Shown here in pieces: positions 26,982 to 47,276 of a stretch of 64,000 bases of DNA (position 1 is its first letter; every line of letters starts with the position of its first letter). Location of the stretch: the NCBI GenBank assembly GCA_947184155.2, contig CAMXCT020000259.1, positions 123,501 to 187,500 of the forward strand, in the 5' to 3' direction. The notes below the pieces were generated by a model. It was not told where the DNA came from. It worked only from the letters and a program-made list of their open reading frames with translations, and did no database searches. Source of the DNA: Cladocopium goreaui (lineage: Eukaryota > Sar > Dinophyceae > Suessiales > Symbiodiniaceae). Made by a program: the position numbers and the translations under genes.

Positions 26982-27643
26982 AGCTAGCAAGTGGCAGGCC
27001 TCCGTTCATACCCCAGTCCCCCCATCCCGCAAAAATATAAATCATAAATTTTTATCATCCAAAAAAAAATAACTTTAGGATATATTTTTCAAAAACTATA
27101 TCCTACAGTTATGATTTATTTTGCTTCTTCTCTTCTTCGTTTCTTAAATGCTTCTGTGTCTTCAAATGTTGAGACATTCCATTCTTCTTCACTTTGCATT
27201 CACAAATTTCACAATAAACTTCTATTTGACGATATGCCCTTCTTTCTTCAATATGTTCTGCATACCACTTCTTATTCATTTCTAATCTTTTGTCTCTGTT
27301 CTTCCAATGTTTTTCTCTGTTCGTTTCTAAGCATCTTAAACAATATTTATTAACATCATTAAACTCTTCTACAGCTTTGGTTGCATTGCATCTCTTACAA
27401 TATCTTTTCTCCATACTCTACATAGGCATTACTTCTTTAAGGTGTTTTGCACCAGTTATTTCCAAAAAACATTTTTTTCAAAAATCTAAATTTTATTTTT
27501 CAAAAAATATTTTCCAAACTTTCATCACAAAAAAATTTCACAAAAAATATTCCAAAAAAATCATAAGTCTTAAAAATAAATTTCACTTTTAAGACTTAAG
27601 GATTAGTCCTCATTATATTAAGGTAACTTTTCTTTAAGTGTTT
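26982..27643 (+). repeat. left terminal inverted repeat of the viral element
   Basis: About 660 bp that reappear in reverse complement at 46616-47276 with only a few differences. The outer end is AGCTAGCAAGTGGCAGGC; the inner end is near ACTTTTCTTTAAGTGTTT. It contains one complete 101-codon gene plus AT-rich flanks with T/A runs. Confidence 0.92.
27109..27414 (-). CDS. TIR-encoded zinc-finger protein, left copy
   Basis: A 101-residue basic protein with two metal-binding clusters: C-x2-C (YCKRCNATKAVEEF) paired with C-x2-C (YCLRCLE) in the first 30 residues, and a C-terminal C2H2 finger (CEICECKVKK then HLKTQKH). The right-hand copy at 46844-47149 differs visibly at one residue (T for K in the RCLE[T/K]NREKHW segment). 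The C-terminal finger resembles the tails of both GIY-YIG nucleases in this element, so a DNA-binding role is likely. The exact function is unknown. A CTTAAAGAA motif lies 19 nt upstream of the start. Confidence 0.75.
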   Translation of the reverse strand: MEKRYCKRCNATKAVEEFNDVNKYCLRCLETNREKHWKNRDKRLEMNKKWYAEHIEERRAYRQIEVYCEICECKVKKNGMSQHLKTQKHLRNEEEKKQNKS

Positions 27644-27664
27644 GCGCGTTAAAAGTCAAAAATA

Positions 27665-28909
27665 TTATGATTGATTTTTGAAAGCATCCTTCAATTTTGT
27701 AAATAAGACTTCTCTATAAACATCTCTTGCCTCTTTTATTATTTGTGATTTTCTGTTTTGGTTTCCCTTTGCTGATATAAAGTTTTTATATAGTGTGCTA
27801 AATTTGTTGTATTCTTCTTTGGTAATCATTCCCTTGTTATTTGCATTCACAAATTCTTCTCTTAATCTTTGAATTCCTATTTTGTAAGGTGCTAATGGTT
27901 TTTGAATTGTTTTTCTTCTGTTGTCGCCTTGTTGTTCTTCATCTTCATCATCTGCATCGTCTCCCATTCCTAAACCTAAATCTTTTTTCTTGTTTCTTTT
28001 TTTCTTTGCTGTTGTGTCTTCTGGCTCGCTTCCATCCCTTTTAGTTCCATCTCCTCTTTCAGTTCCTGCTTTGTGCATTTTTGGTCGTCCTGCTTTGCCT
28101 CTTGGTTCTACTCTTGTTTCTGGTTCTGCTCTTTTGCTTGAACTACTTACATCCATTACTTGAACAACTGGCATTGGTGCTTGGTTGCTTGATGCTGGTA
28201 TGCTTGAATTTGCTATTGATGCTGGTTCTCTTTTGGATTTGGCTTGTCTGTCTTTTACTATTTTCTTTGCTCTGCTTTGTTTCATGTCAGTTTCATTTGT
28301 TTCATCTTCTGTAGCTATGTTAAAAGTTTCTGGTTTTATTGGTTCAAAACTTCTTGGTGGGTTGATGTGATGTATTTGTTCAGTGATTGTTGGCTTGTTT
28401 TGTTTGAATACTTCCCCTCTGTGATTTACTGCTGTTTCTTCTCTCCTTTTGGTTGCTGTGCTTTGTCTTTGTGTAAGCTCTGCATTCAATTGAGATGCTT
28501 GTTGTGTTGAAGATGATGGCACTGTTGGTGTTGTTTGCGTTGTTAGTTCTTCATCTACATTCATAGGTTGTGTTGGTTGTGCTATTGTTGATGATGTTGT
28601 GGGTAGTTGTTGTAGTCTTTCAGTGTGATATGTTCTACCTGCTGTTCTTACATTTTGCCTTAACAATATGTCTGACATTTGCCTCAATAATAATCTGCCT
28701 TGTTCTTCTTTCAGTTGTTCCATAGCATCTGCCCCATCAAATATACTGCCCTCTGGTGAATTTCTGAAAAATGTAGCGTCTCTGTTTGGTAAAGTGCCAG
28801 TCAGTTTTTCATTTTCTGATATTAAATTGGTGATTTCTTCATAAGTTGGTTTTCTGCGTAATCCATATTTGGACATTTTATTTACATTCTCTATCACTGC
28901 TGTTGCCAT
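27665..28909 (-). CDS. conserved virus-type protein, 414 aa, unknown function
   Basis: The N-terminal ~100 residues are well ordered (KYGLRRKPTYEEITNLI, then RQMSDILLRQNVRT). A long low-complexity middle follows, rich in Thr, Gln, Ser, Lys and Glu, with a DADDEDEEQQ acidic patch and KKKRNKKK basic patch. A conserved-looking C-terminus begins near residue 340 (IGIQRLREEFVNANNKG, later FISAKGNQNRKS). It heads the leftward virion cluster, with the stop 22 nt inside the left terminal repeat border. It has no recognised enzyme motif. The position beside the capsid genes suggests a virion or DNA-associated protein; that is inference. TCTAAAA lies about 15 nt upstream of the ATG. Confidence 0.7.
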   Translation of the reverse strand: MATAVIENVNKMSKYGLRRKPTYEEITNLISENEKLTGTLPNRDATFFRNSPEGSIFDGADAMEQLKEEQGRLLLRQMSDILLRQNVRTAGRTYHTERLQQLPTTSSTIAQPTQPMNVDEELTTQTTPTVPSSSTQQASQLNAELTQRQSTATKRREETAVNHRGEVFKQNKPTITEQIHHINPPRSFEPIKPETFNIATEDETNETDMKQSRAKKIVKDRQAKSKREPASIANSSIPASSNQAPMPVVQVMDVSSSSKRAEPETRVEPRGKAGRPKMHKAGTERGDGTKRDGSEPEDTTAKKKRNKKKDLGLGMGDDADDEDEEQQGDNRRKTIQKPLAPYKIGIQRLREEFVNANNKGMITKEEYNKFSTLYKNFISAKGNQNRKSQIIKEARDVYREVLFTKLKDAFKNQS

Positions 28910-28947
28910 TGATAATATAGAATATTTTAGATTAAAAATATTCTATA

Positions 28948-29274
28948 TCAACTAAAATTCAGATTTCTAAATTGATTTATTTGATGCTGTAAATGTTCTA
29001 AACTATTATGGTTAAGATTGTCTCTTTGTATTTCATTATTAACTCTGTCTAATTGATTTCTATAATTCACTCTTTTATTTGCTTCAACTATATCATTTCT
29101 TATTGATATTAATTTATCTCTTGTCTCCTTTTCATCTAATTGCTTCTTTAACCACGCCATATACCTTGTGTCATAGTGTTTAAACATACCACTACCGGTT
29201 GCCTTACCTGCTGGGGCATTCATTTTCTTTCTATAATTTGTTGTAGTTTGTTTTCGCTTATATGCCTGAAACAT
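28948..29274 (-). CDS. small basic protein, 108 aa, unknown
   Basis: Highly charged and mostly helical in appearance, with an N-terminal basic segment (YKRKQTTTNYRKKM) and a long Asn/Gln/Arg-rich helix. Gaps of 36-38 nt separate it from its co-oriented neighbours, so it belongs to the leftward virion cluster next to the major capsid gene. No family is recognised. A small capsid cement or core protein is possible but unproven. Confidence 0.6.
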   Translation of the reverse strand: MFQAYKRKQTTTNYRKKMNAPAGKATGSGMFKHYDTRYMAWLKKQLDEKETRDKLISIRNDIVEANKRVNYRNQLDRVNNEIQRDNLNHNSLEHLQHQINQFRNLNFS

Positions 29275-30879: not shown

Positions 30880-30883
30880 TATA

Positions 30884-30897
30884 TATCTAAATTTAGA
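30884..30897 (-). promoter_or_regulatory. palindromic TCTAAAT promoter-like box of the capsid gene
   Basis: ATCTAAATTTAGAT is a perfect 14-bp palindrome just upstream of the capsid ATG. Its TCTAAAT half recurs before other virion genes (33650, 36415, 37478 on minus, 38335) and as TCTAAAG before 32092 and 38742. The relation to TCTA-type late promoters of Cafeteria-infecting giant viruses and mavirus is by analogy. Confidence 0.4.
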
Positions 30898-30912
30898 TAT
30901 TTTTATTTTATT

Positions 30913-31164
30913 TCATTTCTTTTTATGTGGAATTAACTTAACATTTTTTGGTTGAATATTATTACTGATTTTTTCTATATGTTTATTGTCGCGAATGCCT
31001 CGCGAGGCGTCTGCCGACGCGTCATTATTTTCTACTAAACTTTTTATAGCATTGTATTCTTTTGGTGCTTCATTCATTTCTTTTTGTAGTTTGTTATAGT
31101 TTGACTGTCCTTTTGTTAAAAGTATTGGTTTTTGTTGATTTTTATAATCTATTCTTTTTAACAT
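30913..31164 (-). CDS. small protein, 83 aa, with GC-rich palindromic insert
   Basis: A lysine/asparagine-rich protein lying between the lipase-fold gene and the capsid gene in the leftward cluster. Residues about 48-59 (DASADASRGIRD) are encoded by a 36-nt GC-rich palindromic block at 30988-31023 that is unlike the AT-rich remainder. The rest (KPILLTKGQSNYNKLQKEMN) is helical in character. No family is recognised. Confidence 0.55.
   Translation of the reverse strand: MLKRIDYKNQQKPILLTKGQSNYNKLQKEMNEAPKEYNAIKSLVENNDASADASRGIRDNKHIEKISNNIQPKNVKLIPHKKK
30988..31023. repeat. 36-bp GC-rich palindromic insert inside an ORF
   Basis: GCCTCGCGAGGC is a perfect palindrome flanked by GACGCGTC and a second CG-rich half. 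The block is in frame, adds exactly twelve codons and stands out in composition. It looks like a small selfish palindromic element. Confidence 0.6.
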
Positions 31165-31176: not shown

Positions 31177-32046
31177 TTATATTTTTATTGGATGATTTGG
31201 ATTGATGCCATTGCTAATTTTTGTTGTAGGGTGTAAATGCCACTTGCCTTGATGAACGAAGTTTATATAACTATGTGCTAATAAGGGGTTTAATTCCTTC
31301 CAGTCGCTTGTTTCAGCGTATCCATCTAACAAACTCACTACATCATTGGGATTACGCAGGTCAATTCTTCTTGGGTCTTGTTTCCCTTTTCTTCTTGATT
31401 TTATGGTTGGTGTGGCATAAGTTGTAGTAGCAAATCTTTCAGGCATATCATTGTTTATTTGATTGACTACTGCTGACGCTAAACTGTGTGATACAAGACG
31501 CTTAACATCAGGGTTTTCTTTCAAATACTTCACTACATCTTGGTATTTTTCACTTGCTTTTATGTTTCGGGTTGGGACTAACAATAAGTCATCCATTATG
31601 TCTCGCGTCAATGAACCATTTTTGCCACCAGTCCCAGCAATGTATAATGTAGAACCAGTCTTATATAAACCCGCTTTACTATCATAAGCATTCCATAAGC
31701 CCCTCCTGTCTTCAATTTTGTTTTTGTTCTGTATGTTTCTTACTTCTTTATATAAGGTTGTATTCTTTCTGAATTCATCATCTAAATTTCTTGTAAAGTC
31801 GTTCATTCTTGCGTTCCAGTCTGCGTTCTTTTTATTGTAATCTTCCATTATGGCATCTTTGCCCTGTTTCATTAATTCATTAAATGCTACTCTACCTGTC
31901 TTCTTTGCAAGTTCCCTTAATTGGTCTCTTGTTAAGACGCTTTCAATTGCTTCACCTGACATTATTCTTTCCATAGCTTCTCGCCCGAATTGCCTTGCTA
32001 CTTGTGATAATGCTGTTCTTGCTACTCCTGTTATAACTCCTATCAT
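31177..32046 (-). CDS. lipase-like alpha/beta-hydrolase domain protein
   Basis: 289 residues. The first ~100 are helical, starting with a short hydrophobic segment (MIGVITGVARTALSQVARQF). From residue 130 a lipase (class 3)-like core is visible: TLYIAGTGG (strand and oxyanion region), LVSHSLASAV with candidate nucleophile Ser188 in an S-H-S-L-A elbow in place of the usual G-H-S-L-G, NPNDVVSLLDG with candidate acid Asp235, and LLAHSY with candidate His258. All three triad members occur in the expected order. The gene starts divergently from the minor capsid gene with a 45-nt shared spacer. A virion-borne lipase used in membrane passage is plausible; phospholipase domains play that part in parvoviruses. 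Loss of the first elbow glycine leaves activity uncertain. Confidence 0.6.
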   Translation of the reverse strand: MIGVITGVARTALSQVARQFGREAMERIMSGEAIESVLTRDQLRELAKKTGRVAFNELMKQGKDAIMEDYNKKNADWNARMNDFTRNLDDEFRKNTTLYKEVRNIQNKNKIEDRRGLWNAYDSKAGLYKTGSTLYIAGTGGKNGSLTRDIMDDLLLVPTRNIKASEKYQDVVKYLKENPDVKRLVSHSLASAVVNQINNDMPERFATTTYATPTIKSRRKGKQDPRRIDLRNPNDVVSLLDGYAETSDWKELNPLLAHSYINFVHQGKWHLHPTTKISNGINPNHPIKI

Positions 32047-32091: not shown

Positions 32092-32958
32092 ATGATGAGT
32101 AACAGATTGACTTATAAAAAAGTTTTTGTTGATAGTCAGTATCGTTTGCCTCAATCAAAATCATCATCTGATTTTGTAATAGAACTGGAACAAAATTTTG
32201 AAGTCCCTGCTGGGACAAAGTGTTGGATTACAGAAGTATCTTTGCCAACCACGTGGAAAACAACTGAGGTTGGCTTCTATGAATATTTGTATGTAATGAT
32301 TTACGACAACAATGATACATTCGTTAAAAACTTTAGGGTATATGTTGGGAACAAAATTTATTTTAGTGAGCAGTTGTGTTTTGACTTGAATGAGGGTATG
32401 AATAATAATACAACAGATTTATCAGCAGGTGGTATTTTCGTTTATAGTTATGATAGTGCAACAAGAACAGTAGAGTTTAAGATAAAAGAAGGGTTGAATT
32501 ATAAAGTTAAAATTCCTACTGACACCGAATTAAGCAACTATGTAAATGGACTGTGGGAAACTTCCAGTGCCCCTTATGATAATAGAGATGTTGTATCAAT
32601 TAACTATTTGTTAAGTAATTTTGTTCCTACAAACGGTGGTTTAACAACTTGGACTTCATCTTATTTAAATCTTGTTCCGTTTCGTTCTGTGATGCTTCAT
32701 TGCCCCGAGTTAGCAGACCATCATTATTCATCACCCGCATCATATTCATCAAACATTGTAAAGAAGATACTTATAGATGCTCAATTAGGCGGGGTAGTCA
32801 ATGACAATAACACTGCTTTTCATGAAGACTTTTTGGACGTTGGAGGTCGTAATCTTAAAAGACTTTCATTCAGAATAACTGATACAAATAACAAAACCAT
32901 CAATCTATATGACATAAACTGCCAATTTTCTTTAGTATTCTCGAATCCAAATTATTAA
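32092..32958 (+). CDS. mCP: minor capsid (penton) protein
   Basis: 288 residues starting YKKVFVDSQYRLP, the usual opening of Polinton-like penton proteins, followed by DFVIELEQNFEVPAGTKCWI and ITEVSLPTTWKT. A beta-rich middle is followed by PFRSVMLHCPELADHHYSSP near residue 205, then SNIVKKILID. The C-terminal strand KTINLYDINCQFSLVF closes a jelly-roll fold. It is expected to form pentamers at the capsid vertices. Its position opposite the leftward capsid cluster fits. The call rests on pattern recognition of the DSxYR start and the HCPELxDHHYSS segment. Confidence 0.75.
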   Translation: MMSNRLTYKKVFVDSQYRLPQSKSSSDFVIELEQNFEVPAGTKCWITEVSLPTTWKTTEVGFYEYLYVMIYDNNDTFVKNFRVYVGNKIYFSEQLCFDLNEGMNNNTTDLSAGGIFVYSYDSATRTVEFKIKEGLNYKVKIPTDTELSNYVNGLWETSSAPYDNRDVVSINYLLSNFVPTNGGLTTWTSSYLNLVPFRSVMLHCPELADHHYSSPASYSSNIVKKILIDAQLGGVVNDNNTAFHEDFLDVGGRNLKRLSFRITDTNNKTINLYDINCQFSLVFSNPNY

Positions 32959-33056: not shown

Positions 33057-33641
33057 ATGAGTATCCAAGTTGTGGATTTACAAAATGAAGAAGTGAAAGA
33101 ACTACCAACAATTGAAGAAACAAAAGAAGAACCCAAAGAAGATTTTGACGATGATGATGATGAAATAAAAAATGAAGTAGTGGAAGAGCAGAATAATAAT
33201 GAAATACCAGAACCGCCTAAGGAACAAACACAAGAAGCACCACCTAAACCTAAAAGACAAACGCAAAAGGACAGAATGCAATGTCCGAAATGTTTCAAGG
33301 AAATGTCAGTCAAGTCATACAAATATTCACATGAAAAAAACTGTGGTGGCAAACTATCAGATAGACCTGTGAAGCATCATGCGAAACCTAAAGCAAAAAC
33401 TAAAACAAAGCCTACACCAAAACCAGCCCCCGATGTTTATTATTCTGATAGCGAAGAAGAAGATGTCAAACCTTTATCAAAACCAATTAAAAATCAAGTT
33501 TTAAAACCGCAACCCATCAATCCACAAACGGCATTGGCTCAACACTACCAATTATTACAACAACAGTTGAGACAACAAAAACAAGATAGATATAATAATT
33601 TATGTCAATCAATTTTTAGTAGCAAAAGTAAAAAACGTTAA
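33057..33641 (+). CDS. acidic/basic protein with a C2HC zinc finger, 194 aa
   Basis: Residues 1-60 are very acidic (EDFDDDDDEIKNEVVEEQ). A zinc finger follows at about residue 80 (MQCPKCFKEMSVKSY, then HEKNC). The remainder is Lys/Pro-rich (KPKAKTKTKPTPKPAPD), with an SDSEEED patch and a Gln-rich helix. The 37757 gene has a similar Lys/Pro linker and DDE patch, so the two may be related adaptors. No enzyme motif is seen. A DNA- or core-binding role is inferred. Confidence 0.6.
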   Translation: MSIQVVDLQNEEVKELPTIEETKEEPKEDFDDDDDEIKNEVVEEQNNNEIPEPPKEQTQEAPPKPKRQTQKDRMQCPKCFKEMSVKSYKYSHEKNCGGKLSDRPVKHHAKPKAKTKTKPTPKPAPDVYYSDSEEEDVKPLSKPIKNQVLKPQPINPQTALAQHYQLLQQQLRQQKQDRYNNLCQSIFSSKSKKR

Positions 33642-33667: not shown

Positions 33668-36349
33668 ATGGTTAGTCTGGATGGTCATACATCTTTTATA
33701 GGAACTGAATTCATAAAATTATTGAACACTGGTTCATCAAACCTTGCTACCGAAGAGTTTGTAAATACAGCAGTTGCTAATGGTGGAGTTGGTGGAGGAA
33801 CAGGCACGACTGACTTAACAAACTACTATAATAAAACCGAGACAGATGCTTTATTGAATAATAAATACAATAAATCAGAGACAGATACATTATTAAACAA
33901 TAAGTATAATAAAGCAGAGACAGATACATTGTTAGATACAAAACTGAATATCAACAACCCCCAAGACATAGAAGGGACAATGAGACTTGGGTATATTAAT
34001 GGGACTTCTAAAATAATCCTAAATGCTGTTTCTTCTGATAAGTCGTTTTATGTTAATGGCGATGCACAAGTATTAGGTAATCATTTAGTAGCATCATTAG
34101 ACAGTAGCGGTTATATCAAAGGTTCTAATATTCAGTCAAATACATTCAACACACTAAATTTAAATGATATATTTTTTCAAAGCAACAACGATACTTACTT
34201 ACACTATGATGTTTCAGCAACTAAAATTGTAGCAAGTAAATTAATACAGTGTGGAGGCAATCTTAAAACCCAAGAGATAGACACCATAGCACCGTTAGAT
34301 TTAATCATAAAAAGAAACGATGTCAGTATGATTGAACTTCAAGATAATCTGACGGTATTGAATACTAAAACTCAATGCGAAAATTTTATTGTATGTGATA
34401 ATTTTGAAAGTAGAAATACATCAACAATCATAAACCATATTATGAACGAAAGCACAGGAGAAATGAAGTTTTATGTAGGCAGTCCAGTAGTCCCCGATAC
34501 AACAACCAATTTAATTATGACATTGAAAAACGGGATTGTTGAATTTAATAAACCTACCAATTTAGATTTATCAGGCGACACTTCAAATTGCCTAAAACTG
34601 ACAGGAGAAACCGACCAACAAGTAGCAGGAACTGTTGCCGTTAATGGTGCTAAAAATGGAAGTAATGTATTAACTGTAAATGGTGCTTCATACTTTTCAA
34701 ACAACTTAGAATGTGTTAATAATATTTTATGTGACTATATTGAAAGCAAGAACGCATCAACCGTAATGAATTATGTTATGAATGAAAGCACTGGAGAAAT
34801 TAAATTTTATGTAGGTAGTCCCACAGTTCCCGATGCTACAACTAATTTGGTTATGACATTACAAAATAATCTAATTACATTCCATAAACCGACAAGTCCA
34901 GATATTGGAGGTGGTGGTGTTGATGATACTAATTTAGTAAAATATACCGGTGAAACATTGCAGACAATAGAAGGTGATGTAGTTATAGGTGGTGGTTCTC
35001 AATTTTCTACTTATGACTTAACGGTTAATGGTATTTCTTATTTTAACGCTGCCATAGAGTTTCCATTAGGAGGAGCGATTAATTTAGGAACTGGTAAAGG
35101 TTATATTAGGTCTATTAATTTAGGAAGTGGTAATACTGGTTATGATTATTGTATTTTTGGTGGTGGTGGATTACATCGGTTTTATGTTGGAGGTAGTCCC
35201 TTTCCTCAATATTTAAGATATCAATTATCATCCACTCAGGCATATTTTAATGTTGATGTCGTGTGTCATACTGAATTACAAACCGATGTCATCAATACAA
35301 AAAATGCTACTGATGTTGATTTGGTCTTTAAAAGGGGTGATGTTGAATATATGAAGTTTGAAGGAACGCTGCAAGCAGTGGAACTAACAAAAGGTGCCAA
35401 ATCAAACACTTATGATAGTATCGGTAATGCTGATGTCAGCTTTAGAAGGAACACGATAGATTTTATGTATCTCAGAAATGGCAATGTAGAAGTAAATACA
35501 GGTGTATCATTAGTTGCTGAAAGCGGTAAGTTTGATGTGATTGATAGTGCCACTCCTACTAATGTAGTATTTAAAAGGGGCGGTGTTAATTTCTTTACAT
35601 TAGACGGCGCTAAAAATATAATTGATGTATCAACAGGTAGGGCGTTGTCGTCTCAATATATTTATGGAGACTTTTTTATCCATAGAAATTCTGGTGCTGA
35701 TATGGTGTTTCAAGGTAGTAATACAACAGATGACGGTTCAGTAGAATATATGAGATACAGAAAAGCAGATGAAGATGTTAATTTTTCAAAAGATGTATAT
35801 ATCAATCAAGGTAGAAAATTATACATCCATAAAGAAACAGGTAAAGATAGTTATATTGACTCGGTAAATATAGCATCAGTTAATCATACAACTTTTAGAA
35901 ATGATGATATTAATGGGGAACTACGATTTAGAACTAACGGTTCTACTAAATTCTATGTCCGTGCTAATGATATGTCAATGTCTGCTAATCTAACTTCAGG
36001 TGCCAATATTACGTGTGTAGCACTGACAGAGACGAGTGATAAAAACTTAAAAGAGGACATTAAAACGATAACTACAAAATGTAGCAACATAGTAAAGAAA
36101 ATTAAGGTTAAGAAATACACAATGAAAAATGATGAGAAGAAAAGAACAAATATAGGGTTTGTAGCACAAGAGGTTAAAAGTGCTATACCAAAAGAATTTG
36201 AAAATATTGTTAATGAAGATAATGAATATATGAGTTTGAATTATGGAAGATTAACAGTTGTGTTGTGGAAATCTTGTCAGGAGATGATGAATAAAATGGA
36301 TAAGATGGAAGAAGAAATAAAAGAATTAAAAAGCAAAATCAAAACCTGA
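33668..36349 (+). CDS. fibre/spike protein with C-terminal peptidase S74 chaperone domain
   Basis: 893 residues, the longest intact virion gene. An N-terminal anchor (residues 1-50) is followed by three 13-residue repeats of the form YNKxETDxLLNNK (about residues 56-96), which often form trimeric stalks in phage and algal-virus fibres. A long beta-repetitive shaft (recurring VxFKRGxVxFxxLxG and NESTGExKFYVGSPxVPD blocks) suggests a trimeric beta-helix. The last ~105 residues form an S74 intramolecular chaperone: SDKNLKEDIK, then GFVAQEV and a terminal coiled coil (MDKMEEEIKELKSK). Ser790 and Lys795 have the spacing of the catalytic Ser-Lys pair of endosialidase-type domains, predicting self-cleavage just before Ser790. 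Likely role: receptor-binding spike at a capsid vertex. Confidence 0.85.
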   Translation: MVSLDGHTSFIGTEFIKLLNTGSSNLATEEFVNTAVANGGVGGGTGTTDLTNYYNKTETDALLNNKYNKSETDTLLNNKYNKAETDTLLDTKLNINNPQDIEGTMRLGYINGTSKIILNAVSSDKSFYVNGDAQVLGNHLVASLDSSGYIKGSNIQSNTFNTLNLNDIFFQSNNDTYLHYDVSATKIVASKLIQCGGNLKTQEIDTIAPLDLIIKRNDVSMIELQDNLTVLNTKTQCENFIVCDNFESRNTSTIINHIMNESTGEMKFYVGSPVVPDTTTNLIMTLKNGIVEFNKPTNLDLSGDTSNCLKLTGETDQQVAGTVAVNGAKNGSNVLTVNGASYFSNNLECVNNILCDYIESKNASTVMNYVMNESTGEIKFYVGSPTVPDATTNLVMTLQNNLITFHKPTSPDIGGGGVDDTNLVKYTGETLQTIEGDVVIGGGSQFSTYDLTVNGISYFNAAIEFPLGGAINLGTGKGYIRSINLGSGNTGYDYCIFGGGGLHRFYVGGSPFPQYLRYQLSSTQAYFNVDVVCHTELQTDVINTKNATDVDLVFKRGDVEYMKFEGTLQAVELTKGAKSNTYDSIGNADVSFRRNTIDFMYLRNGNVEVNTGVSLVAESGKFDVIDSATPTNVVFKRGGVNFFTLDGAKNIIDVSTGRALSSQYIYGDFFIHRNSGADMVFQGSNTTDDGSVEYMRYRKADEDVNFSKDVYINQGRKLYIHKETGKDSYIDSVNIASVNHTTFRNDDINGELRFRTNGSTKFYVRANDMSMSANLTSGANITCVALTETSDKNLKEDIKTITTKCSNIVKKIKVKKYTMKNDEKKRTNIGFVAQEVKSAIPKEFENIVNEDNEYMSLNYGRLTVVLWKSCQEMMNKMDKMEEEIKELKSKIKT

Positions 36350-36685: not shown

Positions 36686-37467
36686 TTAATCTGATATTTG
36701 TAAATACTGGTTGAAATTACGCATAAACATTTTTTGAGGGTCTTTTTCAAGAAGGTTAATATAAAGAAAGTTATAACATTCTTGTGTAGCAATTTCATAC
36801 AACTGATAAATCAATTTCTTGCTTTCGTGCAAATTGTTTCTTCTAACAACTGCCGATAATTCATCTTGCAATATTTCAATCTCTTTGAAATTCCTGACCT
36901 TGAAAAAGAACAAGTGCGTAGCATTAACTCTAATCAATGGCGGGACTGTGGAAACCTTTTGAACGCTTGTTATTACACTAATATTATTATGGCGACCTCT
37001 AACATAAAGTGAGTTTAACAGTTTATTATGTCTTGATACTCTGGGGTCATCGCTTATATCATCCAAAATACATAATATACCAAACAGCTTTTTCATGTTA
37101 TGTTTCTTTTGATATTCTACTACTCTATGTTGTGTGTCTATAATCTTTTCCATATCTTCGGCGTTAAATTCTTGAAAGAAACAAGGCTCTTTATCTGTGT
37201 CAATTTTCATTTGAGTTTTTATATATTTCTTCACTGGCAACCAAATAGTATCAACATTTATTGAAGGTGACCAATGTATATACGGGAGAAGGCATTTTTG
37301 TAAATGTCTAAAATCATATTTATCAACAAATTACTTTTTCCACAGCCCGACGGACCCGTTATTAAAGCACGAAATGGAATTTTTGGCGCTACATCATATT
37401 TGCTTTTTTCATAAATGTATTTGACCTCATCAATCGGTTCTATTTTAGGAATATTATTTTTATTCAT
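36686..37467 (-). CDS. A32-type genome-packaging ATPase, frameshifted
   Basis: The upstream part (37258-37467) carries the Walker A motif GPSGCGKSN at about residues 38-46. The downstream part (36686 to about 37255) carries the Walker B strand LFGILCILDDI, the family block YVRGRHNNISVITSVQKVS, and RVNATHLFFFKVRN. These are the marks of FtsK/HerA-type packaging ATPases of Polintons, Polinton-like viruses and giant viruses. Both parts are in the right order but in different frames. The break is near 37272-37280, and one missing base explains it. Total length of about 260 residues equals the usual family size. The role would be pumping the genome into the capsid; as sequenced the gene is broken, or the consensus has an indel. 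Confidence 0.8.
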
Positions 37468-37756
37468 ATAATAATATATTTAGAAAATAAATTTGTAATA
37501 TATATTGTAATATGACATATCATTTTGCTTGATTTTTGGTCGGCAAAAAAACAGGACAGGTTGTCATTTACCCTCATAAGAAGTTAATTCATGCGTTCCC
37601 ACCCCGCACGACCCTTGGTGCATGCTTTTGAAGCTCCCTCCCCGTGTGTCATTATTAGATTATAGCAAAAATATTATCTAATAATAATATGGCTCATGAT
37701 ACTTTTTGAATTCATAAAAGTAGTAATTTATTATATAAAATATTCTATAGATAGAA

Positions 37757-38250
37757 ATGTCACCAAAACCGAAACAAAAACAAAAACCAAAAAGTAAATT
37801 CAAGAAGCAACCAATCCCCGAGGATTTTGAACTTTCAGATGATGAACCCACGACAATAAACCTGAATGAAGAACAGAAGTTGTCAAGTAAATTCATTACC
37901 TTTGACTGTCCTTTATGTCAAGGAAAGTTGCAACTGAGAAATGAAATTGAAATCAATCCAAAAGGCATAAAATGTACAGTAAATGCAATCCATGTAGCTT
38001 CAAAATCAGTAAAAACGATAAGACTATGAATGTGAGTAGAGATGATAACGGTGAAATAGTTTTAGAAAGTGAAGACCACAGCATCAGTTTCTCTTTTAAT
38101 CGTAGGCAAATAACACCTGAAAGCGAAGATGAAAAATATAGAAACGATATGATAAAAGATGTCATGAATACGGCTCACCAGAGCCCTATAGGGTCTAAAG
38201 ACCCGAATACCCCAAGGAATAGAGACATAAAGATAAACGACATGGATTAA
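37757..38250 (+). CDS. zinc-ribbon protein, frameshifted
   Basis: The first frame (37757-about 37975) has a Lys/Pro-rich start, an acidic patch (FELSDDEPTT) and FDCPLCQGKL. The second frame (about 37965-38250) continues with SKCNPCSFKI and a charged tail. The two C-x2-C halves of one zinc ribbon therefore lie in different frames, joined by a shift close to 37960-37975 in an A-rich stretch. A transcription-factor-like zinc ribbon is plausible. The 290-nt gap before it (37468-37756) has no gene but contains a short GC-richer patch at 37590-37650. Confidence 0.55.
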
Positions 38251-39320: not shown

Positions 39321-39932
39321 ATGAAATTACTTGAGATGTTTAGCGGAACGGGTTCGGTGGGAAAAGTTGCAAAAGAGTTTGGTTTTCATGTAGTGTCTTT
39401 GGATTTGAAAAACGCCGATATTAATTGCAATATACTACAATGGGATTATAAACAGTATCCAGTGGGTTATTTTGATTTCATCCATGCTTCCCCACCATGC
39501 ACAGAATATAGTAGGGCTAAAACAGTAGGGGTAAGAAAGATTGATGAAGCAAATACTATTGTATTAAAAACTATTGAGATAATAGATTATTTTAAACCAA
39601 GATATTGGGTAATAGAAAATCCCCAAACTGGATTACTGAAAAATCAATGGTTTATACAAGAACTACCGTATTACGACGTTGATTACTGTAAGTATGGCTT
39701 CAACTACCGCAAACGCACTCGCTTATGGTGTAACATTGATACATGGAAACCACGCGCATTATGCAAAAAGGATTGCGGTAAGGTAATCAACAACAAACAC
39801 ATAGAAACCGCGCAACGCTTACCTAACGGTAAAAAAGAAAATTGGGGCGACTACGCGAAACATACCCAAGACGAACTGTATAAAATCCCATCTGATTTGA
39901 TAAGAGAAATTTTTGAAAATATAAATCTATGA
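39321..39932 (+). CDS. C5-cytosine DNA methyltransferase
   Basis: 203 residues, short but with the key motifs. Motif I MFSGTGSVGK (residues 6-15) binds AdoMet, motif IV ASPPCTEYS has catalytic Cys60, motif VI is VIENP (98-101), and motif VIII-like YRKRTRLW is near residue 130. A recognisable target-recognition domain is minimal, and C-terminal motifs IX/X are weak (HTQDELYKIPSDLI may stand in). Small Dcm-like enzymes of this size occur in algal viruses and Polinton-like viruses. It may mark viral DNA against self- or host-encoded nucleases. Confidence 0.8.
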   Translation: MKLLEMFSGTGSVGKVAKEFGFHVVSLDLKNADINCNILQWDYKQYPVGYFDFIHASPPCTEYSRAKTVGVRKIDEANTIVLKTIEIIDYFKPRYWVIENPQTGLLKNQWFIQELPYYDVDYCKYGFNYRKRTRLWCNIDTWKPRALCKKDCGKVINNKHIETAQRLPNGKKENWGDYAKHTQDELYKIPSDLIREIFENINL

Positions 39933-39959: not shown

Positions 39960-40690
39960 ATTAATTTCCCATCCCAGTGCCAGACCAGTGCCAGACCGCC
40001 GTTGTCCCTTCTGCCAAGCAGGGGGGTGAAAACAAAGGGGTTATATATATATATATATGGGGATATATTCATATAATATGTGTGTGGGATATGTGGTATG
40101 ATATGCACAAATATATGTATATACCCCACGGGAATGGAACATGTCCCCCAAAAAAAGTAAAACAGAACCCTTATCTACTTCTACCATGTTAGTTCTTATT
40201 AGGATTGACTAACCCTTGTTCAATTGCTGTTCTTGCAAAACCCTTCTACACTTCAGCCGTTTTAAAGTTCTCATTTGAACCCTTCTCCACTTCAGCCTTC
40301 AAACCATAGGACAGATACAGCTTTGACATAGGCAGACTGCCACGCGCCATACACACCAGATGCAGGGAAACCCACATAGCAGATGTAGGGAAACCCACAT
40401 AGCAGATGCAGGGAAACCCACATAGCAGATGTAGGGAAACCCACATAGCAGATGTAGGGAAACCCACATAGCAGATGTAGGGAAACCCACATAGCAGATG
40501 TAGGGAAACCTTGAAAATCCACGCATTTTTGTAAATCAGATGTAGCAGTTCCTACACACCAAATGTAGAAAATCACATAACTGAATGTAGGAAACCCCAC
40601 ATCCAGTTTGTGAAAAACCTTGATATTGAATGCGTGTCAGTCTGGAGGATGCCATTAAACACTGCGCTACATAAATAAAAATAATTTTAT
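39960..40690. other. host-like non-coding patch inside the virus
   Basis: No viral gene is visible for about 720 bp. Composition switches from AT-rich to mixed, with G/C runs (AGGGGGGTGAAAACAAAGGG near 40020), a TA microsatellite at 40042-40060 and the 23-bp array at 40360-40510. Viral composition resumes near 40690. It could be a small host transposon inserted between viral genes. Confidence 0.5.
40360..40510 (+). repeat. 23-bp tandem repeat, ~6.5 copies
   Basis: Head-to-tail AGATGTAGGGAAACCCACAT + AGC units with one T/C variant position. There are no spacers, so it is not a CRISPR array. Confidence 0.85.
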
Positions 40691-41102: not shown

Positions 41103-41252
41103 ATGACTAAAAAATCTATAATAAGAAATCTTGATATTTTGAGGAGCATGAGGATAGAAAGAGGAGAAGGGTTAATGCAACAACCCTTGAAAAAATCAAC
41201 AATGTTATTGAACTTTATCAGGACAGAAAGATTTCACAAATGGCAACCGCAG
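41103..41252 (+). CDS. likely N-terminus of the polymerase gene in another frame
   Basis: A 49-codon ORF starts MTKKSIIRNLDILRSM. The main polymerase frame stays open upstream of its first ATG back to about 41135, without an in-frame start, and reads TLEKINNVIELYQDRKISQM before 41240. Together they suggest that the gene begins at 41103 and is shifted near 41150-41165. It could instead be a separate short ORF. Confidence 0.4.
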
Positions 41253-43180
41253 AAAATCTACTGAATGGATTAGTGGAAGGAAAGGAAAAGGGAATGAAAG
41301 CATATGAAAAAGCGGTTGCCAAATATCAAGACGCTGAGCCCATTGGAGAAAAAATTAATGTAAGACTTGCAGTTCAAAAAGCAAACGAAGGAAGAACGAG
41401 AGCGGTGGTGAAAAGAAAGGGGAAGTTGTATTCAGTTAAGTATATGCTTTTTTCAAAGGAAAGAGGGGTAACAAACAAAAACAGAAGCTTTGTTCATAAA
41501 GGTCGTAGATACTACCCGCTTTTGATGAACCCTATGGAGAGAACGGGAAGCGTTAAGAGTCAAAAATGGATTGAAGAAAAAGTTGGAGAAAGAATTTTCA
41601 GAGATGACAAAGACACAGAAAAAGATTTTGCAAAATTAATGGTTATCATGAGAACCGACAAAGATTTTGATGAAATTGTTAAAGGCGAACTTTATCATTA
41701 CGTTGATGCAATCAAAATTATGAAGGCTGAACTAATTGATGAGAGTGCTGAGGACTATGATATTTTCGCTGATGAACTGACTGATGCAAAACACAATGTC
41801 AGTATTTTTAATAGATATGTTCAAACAGAACTTAACCCAGACTGTTTAAAATTCAAAGAAGCCATCAAGAAAAAGGGGCATGTGGATAATGAATGTTGGA
41901 TGAATACACTATTAGACCATTATTCAGAGACATTGTTTAAACACAAAAGGGGAAGCTTAGCAAGAAACATGTGTAGAGAAAAAATATTGGAATGTATCGG
42001 TAAGACCGATGATGAGTTTAAACAGAATGGAGCATCAATAAATGACATGGAAAAAGTCTTTAAAGAATTCAAAATTAAAGCAAGACTTTATGACATTGAC
42101 AGTAATCTGATTTACAAACACGACCCCGAAAACTACAACAGTAAAAAGTTTATTACATTTAATGGCTTAGTTGCAAATAGCCATATCTACACTTTAAACC
42201 ATGACCTACAATCAATCAAACAAAGAAAGGATGGAGATGATTACACTAAAGATGTAAGAGGAATAAGTAACAACTACTACATAAATGACAAAAAAGAACC
42301 GTTGAAATACAAAATGATTAAATCCATTGATGACCTACTGCAACTCAAAGAAGAAGATGAATACAAAATCATTTTAGAAAACAATTGTTTGAACAAGGCA
42401 CTGCATGACTTAAAAGTATCTGGATACACACCACAAATAAGATACAATGCCCATAAAACAACACAAATTACATTAGAACTCACTCACAAAATTGCTGAGA
42501 AGAAATTTAAAACTGTAAAGTATACAATTGTAACACAGTCACTGAACGAGGATAAAATAGATGAAGACATAGCGGTAAATACAGAAGAGAAACATAACAA
42601 AGTCAGTGCGAAAATGTTCAAGTTTCATAAGCAACTTTTCAATGAAAATTTTAAATCATATTATAATGAAACTGATGTTAAGATATTGGATGAATGTAGG
42701 ACAATAGTTCCAAATGGAAGATTTTATGGAAGAGATACCTTTGATGATGTGAGGAAGTGTAGCATCGATAGGAGAAAGGCATACTCATATCAAGCAAAAA
42801 TGATTTCAAAAGTTCCAGTGTTCAAAGAGTTTGATGTATGGCAACATTATGATTATTCAAAATGTGATGTGCATAGGAACGGTAATTACAGTTTATACTT
42901 GGTTAAAGTGTGTCAAGCAAATCTGTTTTTCAACAAAAAGTTTAATTTAGTGTATGGCAAGCATCTGAAAGAATTGATTAAAAGAGGTGTCGCTATGAAA
43001 ATCATTGCATTCAAAAAACCTTCTTTCATTCACAAAGTCAAGTTTAACAAAGCATTGGAAGAACTTTACAAAAGTAAAATCAGCGACGATGAAACCGAGA
43101 ATAACAAGATTCACAAAACCATCGCAAATATTGCTTTTGGATTGTGGGAGAAGAGTTATAACAAAAAAAACCGTGAGTAG
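41240..43180 (+). CDS. divergent family-B-like DNA polymerase region
   Basis: 646 open codons. The middle part has NECWMNTLLDHYSETLF (about residue 221) and HIYTLNHDLQSI (near 318), blocks I associate with polymerases of Polinton-like elements. Motif A appears as SIDRRKAYSYQ (about 508), followed by VPVFKEFDVWQHYD. Motif B appears as KTIANIAFG just before the frame ends. Motif C (VKTDAF) lies in the next frame, at about 43551. The frame stops at 43180 just after an A8 run (43163-43170), and the continuation is in the +1 frame. A protein-primed-type B polymerase is inferred; I cannot verify exonuclease motifs. Confidence 0.6.
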   Translation: MATAENLLNGLVEGKEKGMKAYEKAVAKYQDAEPIGEKINVRLAVQKANEGRTRAVVKRKGKLYSVKYMLFSKERGVTNKNRSFVHKGRRYYPLLMNPMERTGSVKSQKWIEEKVGERIFRDDKDTEKDFAKLMVIMRTDKDFDEIVKGELYHYVDAIKIMKAELIDESAEDYDIFADELTDAKHNVSIFNRYVQTELNPDCLKFKEAIKKKGHVDNECWMNTLLDHYSETLFKHKRGSLARNMCREKILECIGKTDDEFKQNGASINDMEKVFKEFKIKARLYDIDSNLIYKHDPENYNSKKFITFNGLVANSHIYTLNHDLQSIKQRKDGDDYTKDVRGISNNYYINDKKEPLKYKMIKSIDDLLQLKEEDEYKIILENNCLNKALHDLKVSGYTPQIRYNAHKTTQITLELTHKIAEKKFKTVKYTIVTQSLNEDKIDEDIAVNTEEKHNKVSAKMFKFHKQLFNENFKSYYNETDVKILDECRTIVPNGRFYGRDTFDDVRKCSIDRRKAYSYQAKMISKVPVFKEFDVWQHYDYSKCDVHRNGNYSLYLVKVCQANLFFNKKFNLVYGKHLKELIKRGVAMKIIAFKKPSFIHKVKFNKALEELYKSKISDDETENNKIHKTIANIAFGLWEKSYNKKNRE

Positions 43181-45089
43181 GATTTTTAACAATTTGAAGG
43201 AAGCTTTGGCTCATCAGAAAAAGTATGATGGAAGAATTTACGTATTAGATGAGGTTGAGATGGAGACATACCAAAAGTGGAGAGAAGTTGATGATGATAA
43301 CCCATTTTGGGACGATGATTTTGATTTTAAACATGAAAACCGTAAATTATACAAGTGCTTAAGAAATCCCGAAACATTGGAATGCAAAGAGAAGGGTAGA
43401 ACAAGTAAATACTATATTGTAAGTGTGTCTGGACAACGTCAGATGATGAACGGATTCAGACACATCAAAGAACTACTTTTACAAAATCATAATTTTGAAA
43501 TGTATGATGCATATGAAAAATTAAAGGCTAAAAACATTGAAGTGTATGCTGTTAAAACTGATGCTTTCCATATTGCATATAAAGACTTTAGGAAAGCTAA
43601 AAAGGTTTTGAAATTTGGTAGTGACATTGGAGATTGGAGATTTGAAAAGGACAATGTGAAACAAGTAGATAACATTTATCATTGGCAAAATAACGATATT
43701 CCTAAAATACCCGTTTATAAAACTGAAAGGATAGAAGTAAAAGATGAATGGGATACTGAGGCAATTGCCAAACAGATTATTGAAAAGAAACAAGTAATGA
43801 TTAGAAGTAAATTTGCGGGTGGGGGTAAGTCTCATATAGGCAAACATCTTCAAAAGATGGGCTATAATGTTTTGGCAGTAGTTCCACAGAACATGTTAAA
43901 ACAAGAAACTGAATGCGATGCAGTAACATTAAATACATTTTTCAGTGTTCCCGTTCATAAGGGGGATAAATTACCGTGGTTTGATTATAGCGGTTTTGAT
44001 GTAATATTTTTTGATGAAATCTATATGGCAAGCCCATATATTTTAAATAGAATTAGGCAATTTGTCATTAACAATCCTAATTTAATTGTCATAGGTGCAG
44101 GTGATGTAAAACAATTACCGAGCATAGAACCATTTACTAATGTTAGAAATGTTGAGCATTATGTGGATGGATGTATGAACATAATTTTTAAGTATAACAT
44201 CTTCTTAAAAATTTGTAAGAGAGTAGGCGGTAAGGATACAGAACATGGGGAAAGAAACAGAAAGAAGTTAGATGAGATTTATGACGACTGGTGGATAAAA
44301 GAAATGCCATTGAAAGAATGGATTGAGAAGCATTTTAAATACACTGATGACATCATGATTAGTGAAAACAACATTGCATATACAAATTTGAGATGTCAAG
44401 CTGTATCAAATGAAATCAGAAAGAAGTTAAATAAACAAGCTAAGTATGAAGTAGGAGAAATATTGATATGTAGGTTGTATAGGGACGATGAGCAAGGAAA
44501 ACTGAATGTGAATATAAGGTGGAGAGTTGAAAAGGTAGAAGGTAAGAAGGTTAAAATCAGAGACATCAAAGATAGTAAGAATGTCAGAACATATGATGAA
44601 TATTTGATAGAAAAACATTTTAGATACGCATACTGTGCAACAACACATAGTAGGCAAGGACAATCAATAGATGGTGCTTTAGTAATTCACGAATGGCATA
44701 AATCATATCTGGTAAGTAGAGAATGGATTTGGACAAGTATCACAAGAGCAAGAGTTTTTGACAAAGTATATTTTTACAAAAATGAAAAGGGTGATAGTGA
44801 CATGTTTGAAGGTTTGTTAATGGATTACTTCAAGAACAAAATTAATGGTTACAAAATGCAAGATAAGAAAGCTGGAAGAGACATAGATGAAAATGAATAT
44901 GCCGATGAACAGTTTTGCTTGAAACTTTTTAAGAGTTGTTGTTCAAACTGTGGAGTTCAGTTTAACATAGAAATGAAACAAGGGAAACTGAGTTCAAATT
45001 TTACATTACAACGTTGCGATAACCTAATCCCGCACAACAAAAATAATTGCATTGGTTTTTGTTGCTACTGTAATTCTTCTACTCATTAA
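43165..45089 (+). CDS. polymerase C-terminus plus SF1 helicase
   Basis: This frame carries on from the polymerase at the A8 run. It starts with the polymerase thumb-side region, including motif C VKTDAFHIAYKDF (43551), which keeps one aspartate of the usual D-T-D. From about 43790 an SF1 (Pif1/RecD-like) helicase follows: Walker A AGGGKSHIG (43814), Walker B VIFFDEIY (about 44000), GAGDVKQLPS (motif III), ATTHSRQGQSIDGALV (motif V) and WTSITRARV (motif VI). The C-terminus has a cysteine-rich tail (CCSNCGVQF, then CIGFCCYC) that could bind zinc. A natural polymerase-helicase fusion of roughly 1,270 residues is inferred. The ORF opens at 43005, but its first ~55 codons overlap the polymerase and are not real. 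Confidence 0.75.
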
Positions 45090-45129
45090 AAGGGTTTAAA
45101 GGGTAAATGGTTATGATAGATAGATAGGT

Positions 45130-45657
45130 ATGAGTGGGTATGAAAAGGGACAGATTTACAAGATTGTTGATGTTGGGTTCAATCTTTGCTATATTGGCTC
45201 AACAACAGAAAAATTAGTGAAGAGATTTGGAAGACATAGAAGACACTATAGAGCATATTTGTTGGGAACAAAAGATAGACTTACGGTGTTCAAAATCTTT
45301 GACACATACGGGATTGAAAATTGCAAAATTTATTGGATTGAAGATTACCCATGCAAGACTAAAAAAGAACTGGAAGCAAGAGAAGGATATTGGATACAAA
45401 AGACGGACTGTGTAAATAAAAGAATTGAAGGAAGAACTAAGCAACAATACCAACGCGATAGAAGGCTTGAATTGAGAGAATATCATAATAACTACTACCA
45501 CCTCAATAAAAAGACAATATGCAAACCTATTACTTGTGGATGTGGAACTACTTACAATAGAGACCACAAAGCAAGGCACGAAAAATGTCAAAAACATCAA
45601 GACTGGTTGAAGCATCAAGAGACAGAAAAAGAACTTGAATTAGAACAATTAATTTAA
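45130..45657 (+). CDS. GIY-YIG endonuclease with C-terminal zinc finger (2)
   Basis: 175 residues. GQIYKIVDVGFNLCYIGST at residues 7-25 has both GIY and YIG elements, followed by the Arg-helix KRFGRHRRHY and the catalytic Glu in AREGYWIQK. The C-terminal tail reads CGCGTTYNRDHK then HEKCQKHQDW, matching the finger of the first GIY-YIG gene. The two nucleases are clearly different in sequence, so they are not a recent duplication. It sits 41 nt after the helicase and just before the integrase. Confidence 0.8.
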   Translation: MSGYEKGQIYKIVDVGFNLCYIGSTTEKLVKRFGRHRRHYRAYLLGTKDRLTVFKIFDTYGIENCKIYWIEDYPCKTKKELEAREGYWIQKTDCVNKRIEGRTKQQYQRDRRLELREYHNNYYHLNKKTICKPITCGCGTTYNRDHKARHEKCQKHQDWLKHQETEKELELEQLI

Positions 45658-45677
45658 ATAATATCTTGTTTATTAAT

Positions 45678-46598
45678 ATGAGTTCTAAACAAGATATTAT
45701 ATCAAAAATATATTATGATAGAGCTGGTTTTGGTTCTAAGCAAAATACCTTGAAAGATGCAAGAGAAAAAGACACGAGTATAACAAAAGAAGATGTTGAA
45801 GAGTTCTTTAAAAAGAACGTTGAAGTGAAAAGAAAACCAAGAGGATACAATTCATTTACAGCACCGCATAACAATTATTCTTATCAGATAGATTTGTTTT
45901 TTATTTCCAAAAAAGATTTGAAAGTAAAACAAAAATTTAGAGCTGGATTAGTTTGTATTGATGTTTTGAGCAAGTATGCCGTGGTAGTTCCCGTAAGAAC
46001 AAAATTAACAAACAGTGTCATCAATGGCACAAAACAAGCCATAGAAAAAATGGGTAAGAAGCCAAAGATGATTTATACAGATAATGAAAGTGCTGTGAAG
46101 AGTGCTGAATTTCAACAATATTGTGAAGATGAAGGCATTGAACTTTATAGAACAAGAGGACACCCTGCATTCGCTGAACGTTTTATTAGGACGTTCAAAG
46201 ATAAATTATTTAAGAGGATTGAAAAGGATGAGAAAGACAGAAAGCCTAACATTCAATGGATTGATTATATAACTGAAATCATGCTAACATATAACAATAA
46301 AGATATTCATTCATCCATTGGTCAAACACCAAACGAAGCAAGGAAAAAAGAAAATGAATTTAAATCAAAACTAAATGTATCCATCAAAGCAAAAAGAAAT
46401 AGGATGTATCCCGAGTTGAATGTGGGAGACAGAGTAAAAATTGTAAGAAAAAAGGCGATTACAGAAAAAGAGAGAACAAGCAACTTTTTAAAAGGTGAAT
46501 ATATCGTGGAAGAAATTTTTGAAAAATTAAATCAAAAGTATTACAGATTGGGTGACTTCAATAGACCGCTTATGCGACACGAGTTGTTAAAAGTATGA
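45678..46598 (+). CDS. retroviral-type (rve/DDE) integrase
   Basis: 306 residues from the ATG at 45678; an earlier TTG at 45666 is less likely. The catalytic triad is Asp72 (YQIDLFF), Asp135 (IYTDNESA) and Glu167 (AFAERFIRTFK), spaced D-D-31-E, slightly shorter than D35E. QTPNEARKK marks the end of the core. A C-terminal SH3/chromo-like segment follows (NVGDRVKIVRKKA, then YYRLGDFNRPLMRHELLKV). It should cut and join the terminal repeats into host DNA. It ends 18 nt before the right terminal repeat, the usual place for Polinton integrases. Confidence 0.88.
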   Translation: MSSKQDIISKIYYDRAGFGSKQNTLKDAREKDTSITKEDVEEFFKKNVEVKRKPRGYNSFTAPHNNYSYQIDLFFISKKDLKVKQKFRAGLVCIDVLSKYAVVVPVRTKLTNSVINGTKQAIEKMGKKPKMIYTDNESAVKSAEFQQYCEDEGIELYRTRGHPAFAERFIRTFKDKLFKRIEKDEKDRKPNIQWIDYITEIMLTYNNKDIHSSIGQTPNEARKKENEFKSKLNVSIKAKRNRMYPELNVGDRVKIVRKKAITEKERTSNFLKGEYIVEEIFEKLNQKYYRLGDFNRPLMRHELLKV

Positions 46599-46615
46599 TT
46601 TACGTTTTAAGGCAA

Positions 46616-47276
46616 AAACACTTAAAGAAAAGTTATCTTAATACAATGAGGACTAATCCTTAAGTCTTAAAAGTAGAATTTATTTTTAAGACTTATGATT
46701 TTTTGGAATATTTTTTGTGAAATTTTTTTGTGATGAAAATTTGGAAAATATTTTTTGAAAAATAAAATTTAGATTTTTGAAAAAAATGTTTTTTGGAAAT
46801 AACTGGTGCAAAACACCTTAAAGAAGTAATGCCTATGTAGAGTATGGAGAAAAGATATTGTAAGAGATGCAATGCAACCAAAGCTGTAGAAGAGTTTAAT
46901 GATGTTAATAAATATTGTTTAAGATGCTTAGAAAAGAACAGAGAAAAACATTGGAAGAACAGAGACAAAAGATTAGAAATGAATAAGAAGTGGTATGCAG
47001 AACATATTGAAGAAAGAAGGGCATATCGTCAAATAGAAGTTTATTGTGAAATTTGTGAATGCAAAGTGAAGAAGAATGGAATGTCTCAACATTTGAAGAC
47101 ACAGAAGCATTTAAGAAACGAAGAAGAGAAGAAGCAAAATAAATCATAACTGTAGGATATAGTTTTTGAAAAATATATCCTAAAGTTATTTTTTTTTGGA
47201 TGATAAAAATTTATGATTTATATTTTTGCGGGATGGGGGGACTGGGGTATGAACGGAGGCCTGCCACTTGCTAGCT
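46616..47276 (-). repeat. right terminal inverted repeat of the viral element
   Basis: Reverse complement of 26982-27643 with few changes. It ends ..GGCCTGCCACTTGCTAGCT, then continues into a host TA microsatellite (47277-47380). Confidence 0.92.
46844..47149 (+). CDS. TIR-encoded zinc-finger protein, right copy
   Basis: 101 residues, nearly identical to the left copy at 27109-27414. It has the same C-x2-C pairs (YCKRCN and YCLRCLEKN) and the same C-terminal C2H2 finger (CEICECKVKK then HLKTQKH). CTTAAAGAA at 46817-46825 is 19 nt upstream of the ATG in both copies. A gene kept intact in both inverted repeats may act early, or may recognise the element ends; that is inference. Confidence 0.75.
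   Translation: MEKRYCKRCNATKAVEEFNDVNKYCLRCLEKNREKHWKNRDKRLEMNKKWYAEHIEERRAYRQIEVYCEICECKVKKNGMSQHLKTQKHLRNEEEKKQNKS

Follow-up and report, generated by a model that had tools for sequence, protein, structure and literature searches.

A probable endogenous, recombinant Polinton-like virus bounded by terminal inverted repeats in a contig of the dinoflagellate Cladocopium goreaui

In the available parts of the published descriptions, the first set of Polinton-like viruses (PLVs) carried lipases, GIY-YIG nucleases and Dcm methylases, had no protease, and contained an rve integrase in one element only (PMC4642659). In two cryptophyte PLV clusters rve is the main integrase; target duplications are described together with rve integrase, capsid and polymerase trees disagree in cryptophytes, and the PLVs of most eukaryotic groups are said to carry S74 fibres ubiquitously (PMC12220804). 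The fusion of a palm domain with a superfamily 1 (SF1) helicase represents the Tlr1-like enzyme, whose activity was predicted by its authors despite loss of the first Asp of motif C (PMC11071308). Among dinoflagellates, most capsids form a 'Dino group', with 2,535 capsid genes in Polarella glacialis (PMC10120064), the reference polinton is an element of about 21 kb from Symbiodinium kawagutii (PMC12721341), and the Maverick elements of Breviolum minutum are rich in 5-hydroxymethyluracil (5-hmU) (PMC11071213). In this study, we analyzed a 64,000-nucleotide stretch of the Cladocopium goreaui assembly GCA_947184155.2 (contig CAMXCT020000259.1, hereafter C259:123501-187500 and referred to as the window), focusing on an element at 26982..47276 that a sequence-only reading had described as an integrating PLV. 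The element is very probably an endogenous, recombinant PLV of a dinoflagellate-type host, bounded by terminal inverted repeats (TIRs) and with two core genes interrupted in this copy.

Alignment of the inverted arms placed the outer start exactly at 26982 and the outer end exactly at 47276, which confirmed the proposed coordinates and gave an element of about 20.3 kb. The features that define its boundaries were as follows.

26977..26981, no strand: left copy of the target site duplication, TATAT, low in complexity here and backed by two relatives
26982..27654, plus strand: left TIR, terminus AGCTAG (9 matches of the terminus pattern against 0 for the control)
46605..47276, minus strand: right TIR, from the inverted-arm alignment
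47277..47281, no strand: right copy of the target site duplication, TATAT, from flank comparison

The two repeats, which had been estimated at about 660 bp, are present at both ends and align over 672-673 nt with 98.5% identity, 9 mismatches and one indel; the outer 572 nt hold just 2 mismatches, and the '100%' identity across 578 nt given by the first inverted-repeat search was a product of rounding. A degenerate terminus pattern turned up 9 times in the host assembly of 1.17 Gb and 6202 contigs, spread over 6 loci (C109, C255, C259, C1932, C2101 and C2115; C-numbers denote contigs of this assembly and L-numbers individual element copies), and its reversed control had 0 matches there. On these counts an origin of the TIRs as an assembly artefact, which the sequence-only reading had named as what would speak against it, was rejected as unlikely. 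The TATAT flanks by themselves are uninformative since the site lies in (TA)n; the flanking 5-mers are equal in all three elements in which both ends were seen (TATAT in C259, GTATA in C2101 and GTAAT in C2115), and the flanking 6-mers are unequal in all three, which shows a 5-bp duplication. Equal 5-bp flanks fit the rve integrase that the element itself encodes, and an rve integrase, long TIRs and a target duplication of the 5-6 bp class, taken as the mark of rve-integrating elements, are found together here. The GC content per kb is 27-38% inside the element and mostly 38-54% outside it, the exceptions being three 1-kb bins of lower GC (12-13 and 17-19 kb). The TIR is 87-88% similar to that of C2101 over the whole arm and only partially similar to those of C2115, C255, C1932 and C109. 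Divergence between the two arms is 1.5% in C259, 4-6% in C2101 and about 5% in C2115 (358 nt), and by this measure the C259 insertion looks younger than the other two. Repeats of (TA)n or (TGTA)n host four of the six terminus loci (C259, C2115, C1932 and C255, not C2101 or C109); only one flank was seen for three of the six, and a preference for insertion into such repeats is suggestive only and is kept out of our claims.

The virion half of the element and the gene in which it begins comprise the following features.

27665..28909, minus strand: open reading frame (ORF) of a low-complexity protein of 414 aa that holds the left mosaic junction (about 28300-28500)
28948..29274, minus strand: ORF of a 108-aa protein, found too in copies L041 and L046
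29311..30879, minus strand: capsid protein (MCP) gene
30913..31164, minus strand: 83-aa ORF, no Pfam match above cut-off
31177..32046, minus strand: lipase-like protein, 289 aa, recognized by the motif [SG]HSL[AG]SAV only, which is conserved in relatives
32092..32958, plus strand: penton (minor capsid) protein, 288 aa, AF2 model with pLDDT 72
33057..33641, plus strand: acidic/basic protein, 194 aa, Pfam matches only below cut-off
33668..36349, plus strand: fibre, 893 aa, with a C-terminal Peptidase_S74 chaperone (Pfam E 1.1e-13)
36689..37479, minus strand: A32-like packaging ATPase with an interrupted frame (pieces 37261-37479 and 36689-37330)

Structure prediction recovered a capsid fold for the capsid protein (model pLDDT 58.5), similar to the Sputnik and mavirus chains without a sequence match to them, and the penton model matched the mavirus penton (E 6e-9) and a protein of Tetraselmis viridis virus S1 (E 8e-11). 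The capsid fold and the penton jelly-roll, whose absence the sequence-only reading had held to be damaging, were therefore both found, and a jelly-roll penton or minor capsid protein is a feature of PLV membership. A further such feature is an A32/FtsK-type packaging ATPase, of which the second piece scored 37.4 bits with the Pox_A32 profile (cut-off 22.8) in a frame that is interrupted. Together, the capsid and penton folds, the TIRs, the target duplication and the rve integrase support the identification as an integrated PLV. Sequence searches of PDB gave no relative of the capsid (one chance-level row in each search, and none matching the Sputnik or mavirus chains), no relative of the penton (one chance-level row) and one chance-level row only for the ATPase piece, and the capsid had no match in a viral contig collection, in which 43 capsid-pattern matches were seen and none confirmed. 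The fibre also matched the phage long tail fibre distal subunit 6f45 (E 2e-4). As for the lipase-fold protein that had been proposed, the gene is present, known from its motif, and Pfam gave nothing above cut-off. No profile of a maturation protease exceeded the Pfam cut-off in 20 ORFs, save the self-cleaving S74 domain of the fibre, and remote homologues could escape such a search.

The 3' side of the capsid gene was read in 20 copies, 15 of which have a capsid identity of at least 95%. These 15 stay close to the window only to about 28.3 kb, and beyond this point the copies examined (ORFs of L041 and L046) run into a polymerase gene on the capsid strand, not into a TIR; compared with them, the polymerase of the window lies at the opposite end and on the opposite strand. 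A polymerase piece is present in 14 of the 15 (26-36% amino acid identity in the best stretch, others up to 44%), and L044 had none in the 6.2 kb read. In the bins of 27600-28299, C2101 is 90-98% identical to the window versus 48-79% for four aligned capsid-lineage copies; in the bins from 28500, C983 and C556 are 93-100% identical except in one bin (86%), and C2101 is 58-73% identical (aligned as far as about 29.1 kb). When sites were counted as informative where three capsid-lineage copies share a base unlike that of C2101, the window sided with C2101 at 178 sites and with the capsid lineage at 17 in 27600-28299 (8 neither), with the capsid lineage at 27 and with C2101 at 11 in 28300-28499 (7 neither), and with the capsid lineage at 154 and with C2101 at 7 in 28500-29199 (3 neither). 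The capsid is 99% identical in amino acids to that of C556 with a synonymous divergence (dS) of 0.07, which makes the exchange recent on that scale, and the two polymerases are only about 31% identical.

At the other end, genome searches scored 40 of 210 candidates for the polymerase, 40 of 317 for the ATPase region and 32 of 337 for the fibre region. For polymerase DNA, identity was 87-88% with C255, C109 and C2101 and 92% and 85% with C2115, and no other match listed exceeded 77%. The ATPase stretch matched C67 (84%) and C6111 (85%); from about 37.4 kb the matches were C2115, C255 and C109 at 84-86%, and near 41 kb C2115, C255, C109 and C2101 at 90-95%. This change of best match gives one further feature.

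37372..37591, no strand: approximate position of the right mosaic junction, between the start of the C255 match (37372) and the end of the C67 match (37591)

Within the virion half, identity of the fibre with C556 was 91%, the C-terminal part of the fibre was 94% identical to three copies, and C97 matched 31176-35856 at 82%. The sites at the left junction and the change of best match at the right one show, at the level of sequence comparison, that the element is recombinant. Its virion half (about 28.4-37.5 kb, with the MCP, lipase-like, penton, fibre and ATPase genes) is matched best by the common lineage pool of the genome and probably has more than one parent; by the same comparisons, the TIRs, one end of the 414-aa gene and the half with GIY-YIG, methylase, polymerase and integrase match a small second lineage. 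A mismatch between capsid and polymerase could also arise from separate insertions misjoined at homologous stretches during assembly, and an assembly of 6202 contigs with at least 83 similar capsid loci is a setting in which misjoins occur; we consider such a chimera very unlikely because it requires two misjoins, one of them within a 414-aa gene that still reads as one open frame, and yet leaves TIRs matching at 98.5% at both ends with equal flanking 5-mers.

Several points weigh against reading the element as an endogenous recombinant PLV. Confidence in the capsid model is modest (pLDDT 58.5), and the partly scored genome searches could miss a closer parent. The segment 36418-36690 beside the ATPase matches C2101 (87%), C2115 (85%), C109 (84%) and C67 (84%), so that the virion half is not shown as one clean block, and C255, the only one of the six terminus loci found there, matches part of that half at 81%. 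The best relative changes by part (C556, C97, C67 and C5815), which makes more than two parents likely. In addition, the ATPase and polymerase frames are both broken, so that activity of this copy is not a given, and the breaks may stem from sequencing error. The 'near-complete' state that had been claimed accordingly holds for the presence of the named genes and not for these two frames, each of which is split.

The replication and integration half contains the following features.

37757..38029, plus strand: small ORF, 90 aa
38356..38685, plus strand: small ORF, 109 aa
38742..39290, plus strand: free-standing GIY-YIG endonuclease (Pfam E 4e-12)
39321..39932, plus strand: short Dcm-like cytosine methyltransferase, 203 aa (Pfam E 2e-6)
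40357..40510, no strand: 23-bp minisatellite of 6.7 copies between methylase and polymerase, from a tandem repeat search
41135..45089, plus strand: pPolB (palm)-SF1 helicase with a vOTU-like domain, reading frame broken near 43.2 kb into two pieces (41135-43177 and 42999-45086)
45130..45657, plus strand: second GIY-YIG endonuclease with a Cys/His-rich tail (Pfam E 2.3e-6)
45666..46598, plus strand: rve (DDE) integrase, 310 aa (Pfam E 8.6e-13)

The polymerase motifs, read in two pieces, were aligned with 17 relatives at least 1000 aa long. The vOTU-like Cys and His, palm motifs A and B and a motif C of the form K[TS]D were found, followed in the helicase part by Walker A, Walker B and HSxQG; a few rows were without a stretch or residue, P0134 has His for the motif A Asp, and P0236 has an altered Walker A. 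These motif columns include what marks the Tlr1-like group, namely a vOTU domain, a palm with the first Asp of motif C lost and a C-terminal SF1 helicase, and by its motifs the gene is a predicted Tlr1-like pPolB-S1H. General Pfam scans gave no profile match to an exonuclease domain, with no search aimed at exonuclease made, and PF03175 (pPolB with exonuclease) had no match in the Pfam scans of the element ORFs. Rfam gave no hit at gathering score across 24-50 kb, and a location of the GIY-YIG gene at 38742 inside a group I intron is accordingly not demonstrated; a tRNA search gave none.

The search for other copies in the host assembly, which the sequence-only reading had suggested, returned 83 scored capsid matches (own copy included, from 300 candidates) with 67-100% identity, in addition to the terminus at six loci, and 65 of the 83 had no in-frame stop. 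Protein databases contained 379 capsid matches, and the named relatives among the best 120 were EukProt proteins with the label Skav, which we take to be S. kawagutii, at 68-70% identity; Skav-labelled relatives of the polymerase piece reached 79%. It is these Skav-labelled relatives, together with the size and the repeats of the genome, that mark the host as of dinoflagellate type. The capsid proteins of C2101 and C2115 are each 71% identical to that of the window. The ratio of nonsynonymous to synonymous divergence (dN/dS) was calculated for 29 capsid copies (the partial L033 excluded; L022 and L025, with one stop each, and L024 and L030, whose matches end before the gene end, kept), and 363 of the 406 pairs fell in dS bins. 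Medians were 0.068-0.076 in each dS class of at least 0.05 (339 pairs), and the 24 pairs with dS below 0.02, with a median of 0.35, are too close to judge. Such low ratios indicate that capsid function was selected while the copies diverged; they speak for past selection, as estimated from the aligned genes, and say nothing on the activity of any present copy. They also bear on the question of virus versus transposon. The rve integrase, TIRs, target duplication and many copies would fit a canonical Polinton/Maverick transposon that spreads by transposition only, with its capsid genes as inert passengers, and yet a capsid dN/dS of about 0.07 among copies points to selection on the virion, 65 of 83 scored capsid matches are free of in-frame stops, the penton and S74 fibre are kept, and the polymerase has motifs of the Tlr1-like type that PLVs typically carry, which renders that explanation highly improbable.

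Four capsid copies on one contig (C5989:15564, 63380, 106777 and 110790) have one TAG stop each, three of them equal-scoring, and look like local duplication of a dead element. The element with the same terminus at C2101:20027-56681 (L003 and L004) is 36.7 kb long with the duplication GTATA, and matches that adjoin in the query lie about 7.5 kb (30277-37765) and 7.6 kb (37987-45597) apart on the contig. The length of 36.7 kb is probably due to two nested insertions; the C2115 relative measures 21.6 kb.

For an endogenous recombinant PLV, the predicted functions suggest a cycle in which the integrase would insert linear TIR-ended DNA, replication would be primed by a terminal protein that the vOTU domain then releases, the ATPase would package DNA into a double-jelly-roll capsid, the S74 fibre would trimerise and attach, and the lipase-like protein may help membrane passage. 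Two such genomes may have recombined, in one replicating cell or between resident copies, so that the virion module was swapped, and the TIR, polymerase and integrase would have been kept together since they must recognize each other. It is quite possible, if short of probable, that resident virus lineages in one algal nuclear genome trade whole virion modules, and that a rare backbone (TIR, integrase and polymerase; six loci by terminus) gained the capsid-lipase-penton-fibre-ATPase half of the common lineage. If so, the backbone changed its coat and attachment fibre, TIR, polymerase and integrase stay matched while the virion set is interchangeable, and the genome represents a standing library of interchangeable coats. 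The value of the element lies in a mapped module exchange in one genome, with a junction within about 200 bases inside a gene, and the mapped junctions open to direct test the sites and the manner of PLV recombination, and the question of whether the TIR, polymerase and integrase are inherited as a unit. A literature search, mostly without subscription papers, found no paper on PLV module exchange inside one dinoflagellate genome.

The remaining features of the element are two ORFs, one wholly inside each TIR and hence duplicated.

27109..27414, minus strand: 101-aa zinc-finger-like ORF within the left TIR, Pfam matches only sub-threshold
46844..47149, plus strand: 101-aa ORF within the right TIR, one residue unlike the left copy

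The left ORF is kept in a C2101 arm (L003) at 94% amino acid identity over residues 1-90, and by eye its Cys/His tail is like the C-termini of the element's two GIY-YIG proteins. Elsewhere in the window, a FoldBack-like element at 51620-59366 has 416-nt inverted arms (95%) that enclose long 17-bp minisatellite arrays in opposite orientation on the two sides, and dense host tandem arrays occupy 7257-12673, with units of 7, 10, 16, 85, 298 and 407 bp among others.

The combination of genes had been thought distinctive and a possible sign of an undescribed lineage. The capsid is indeed without a sequence relative in PDB and without a confirmed one in the viral contig collection, and the exact gene set was not found listed in any one paper; in the parts of the literature available, however, PLVs with each of these gene types have been described and dinoflagellate elements are on record (PMC10120064, PMC12721341 and PMC12220804), and identity with Skav-labelled proteins is 68-70% for the capsid and up to 79% for the polymerase piece, so that a lineage defined by this combination is extremely unlikely. 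The element is real, correctly bounded and correctly recognized as a PLV, yet an ordinary member of a published group; its mosaic structure could not be detected by the sequence-only reading.

As far as the accessible text of the cited papers describes them, the closest known systems share most of its properties. The S. kawagutii polinton VSDK01003953.1:97440-118633 (PMC12721341 Fig. 1) is likewise from a dinoflagellate and is 21.2 kb long versus 20.3 kb here; it is likened by this length and by the Skav-labelled proteins (capsid 68-70%, polymerase piece up to 79%). The Dino group (PMC10120064) is alike in its dinoflagellate capsids with many copies per genome, by its published description. 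Tlr1 of Tetrahymena shares the rve integrase, palm-SF1 helicase, vOTU, altered motif C and GIY-YIG (PMC11071308, PMC12721341), but its GIY-YIG is fused to the helicase, whereas in the window it is separate and just downstream. OmPLV of Oxyrrhis marina (PMC12721341) is also from a dinoflagellate, with low GC, TIRs, ATPase, GIY-YIG, and polymerase and SF1 helicase in one protein; its fusion protein starts with the helicase, and it has an exonuclease and a tyrosine recombinase and lacks a target duplication, in contrast to the palm-first protein, rve integrase and 5-bp duplication of the window element. The cryptophyte PLVs resemble it in their rve integrase, short duplications (6 bp typical), S74 fibres and separate capsid and polymerase histories, which were recognized there from incongruent trees (PMC12220804), whereas here the junctions are located within one element.

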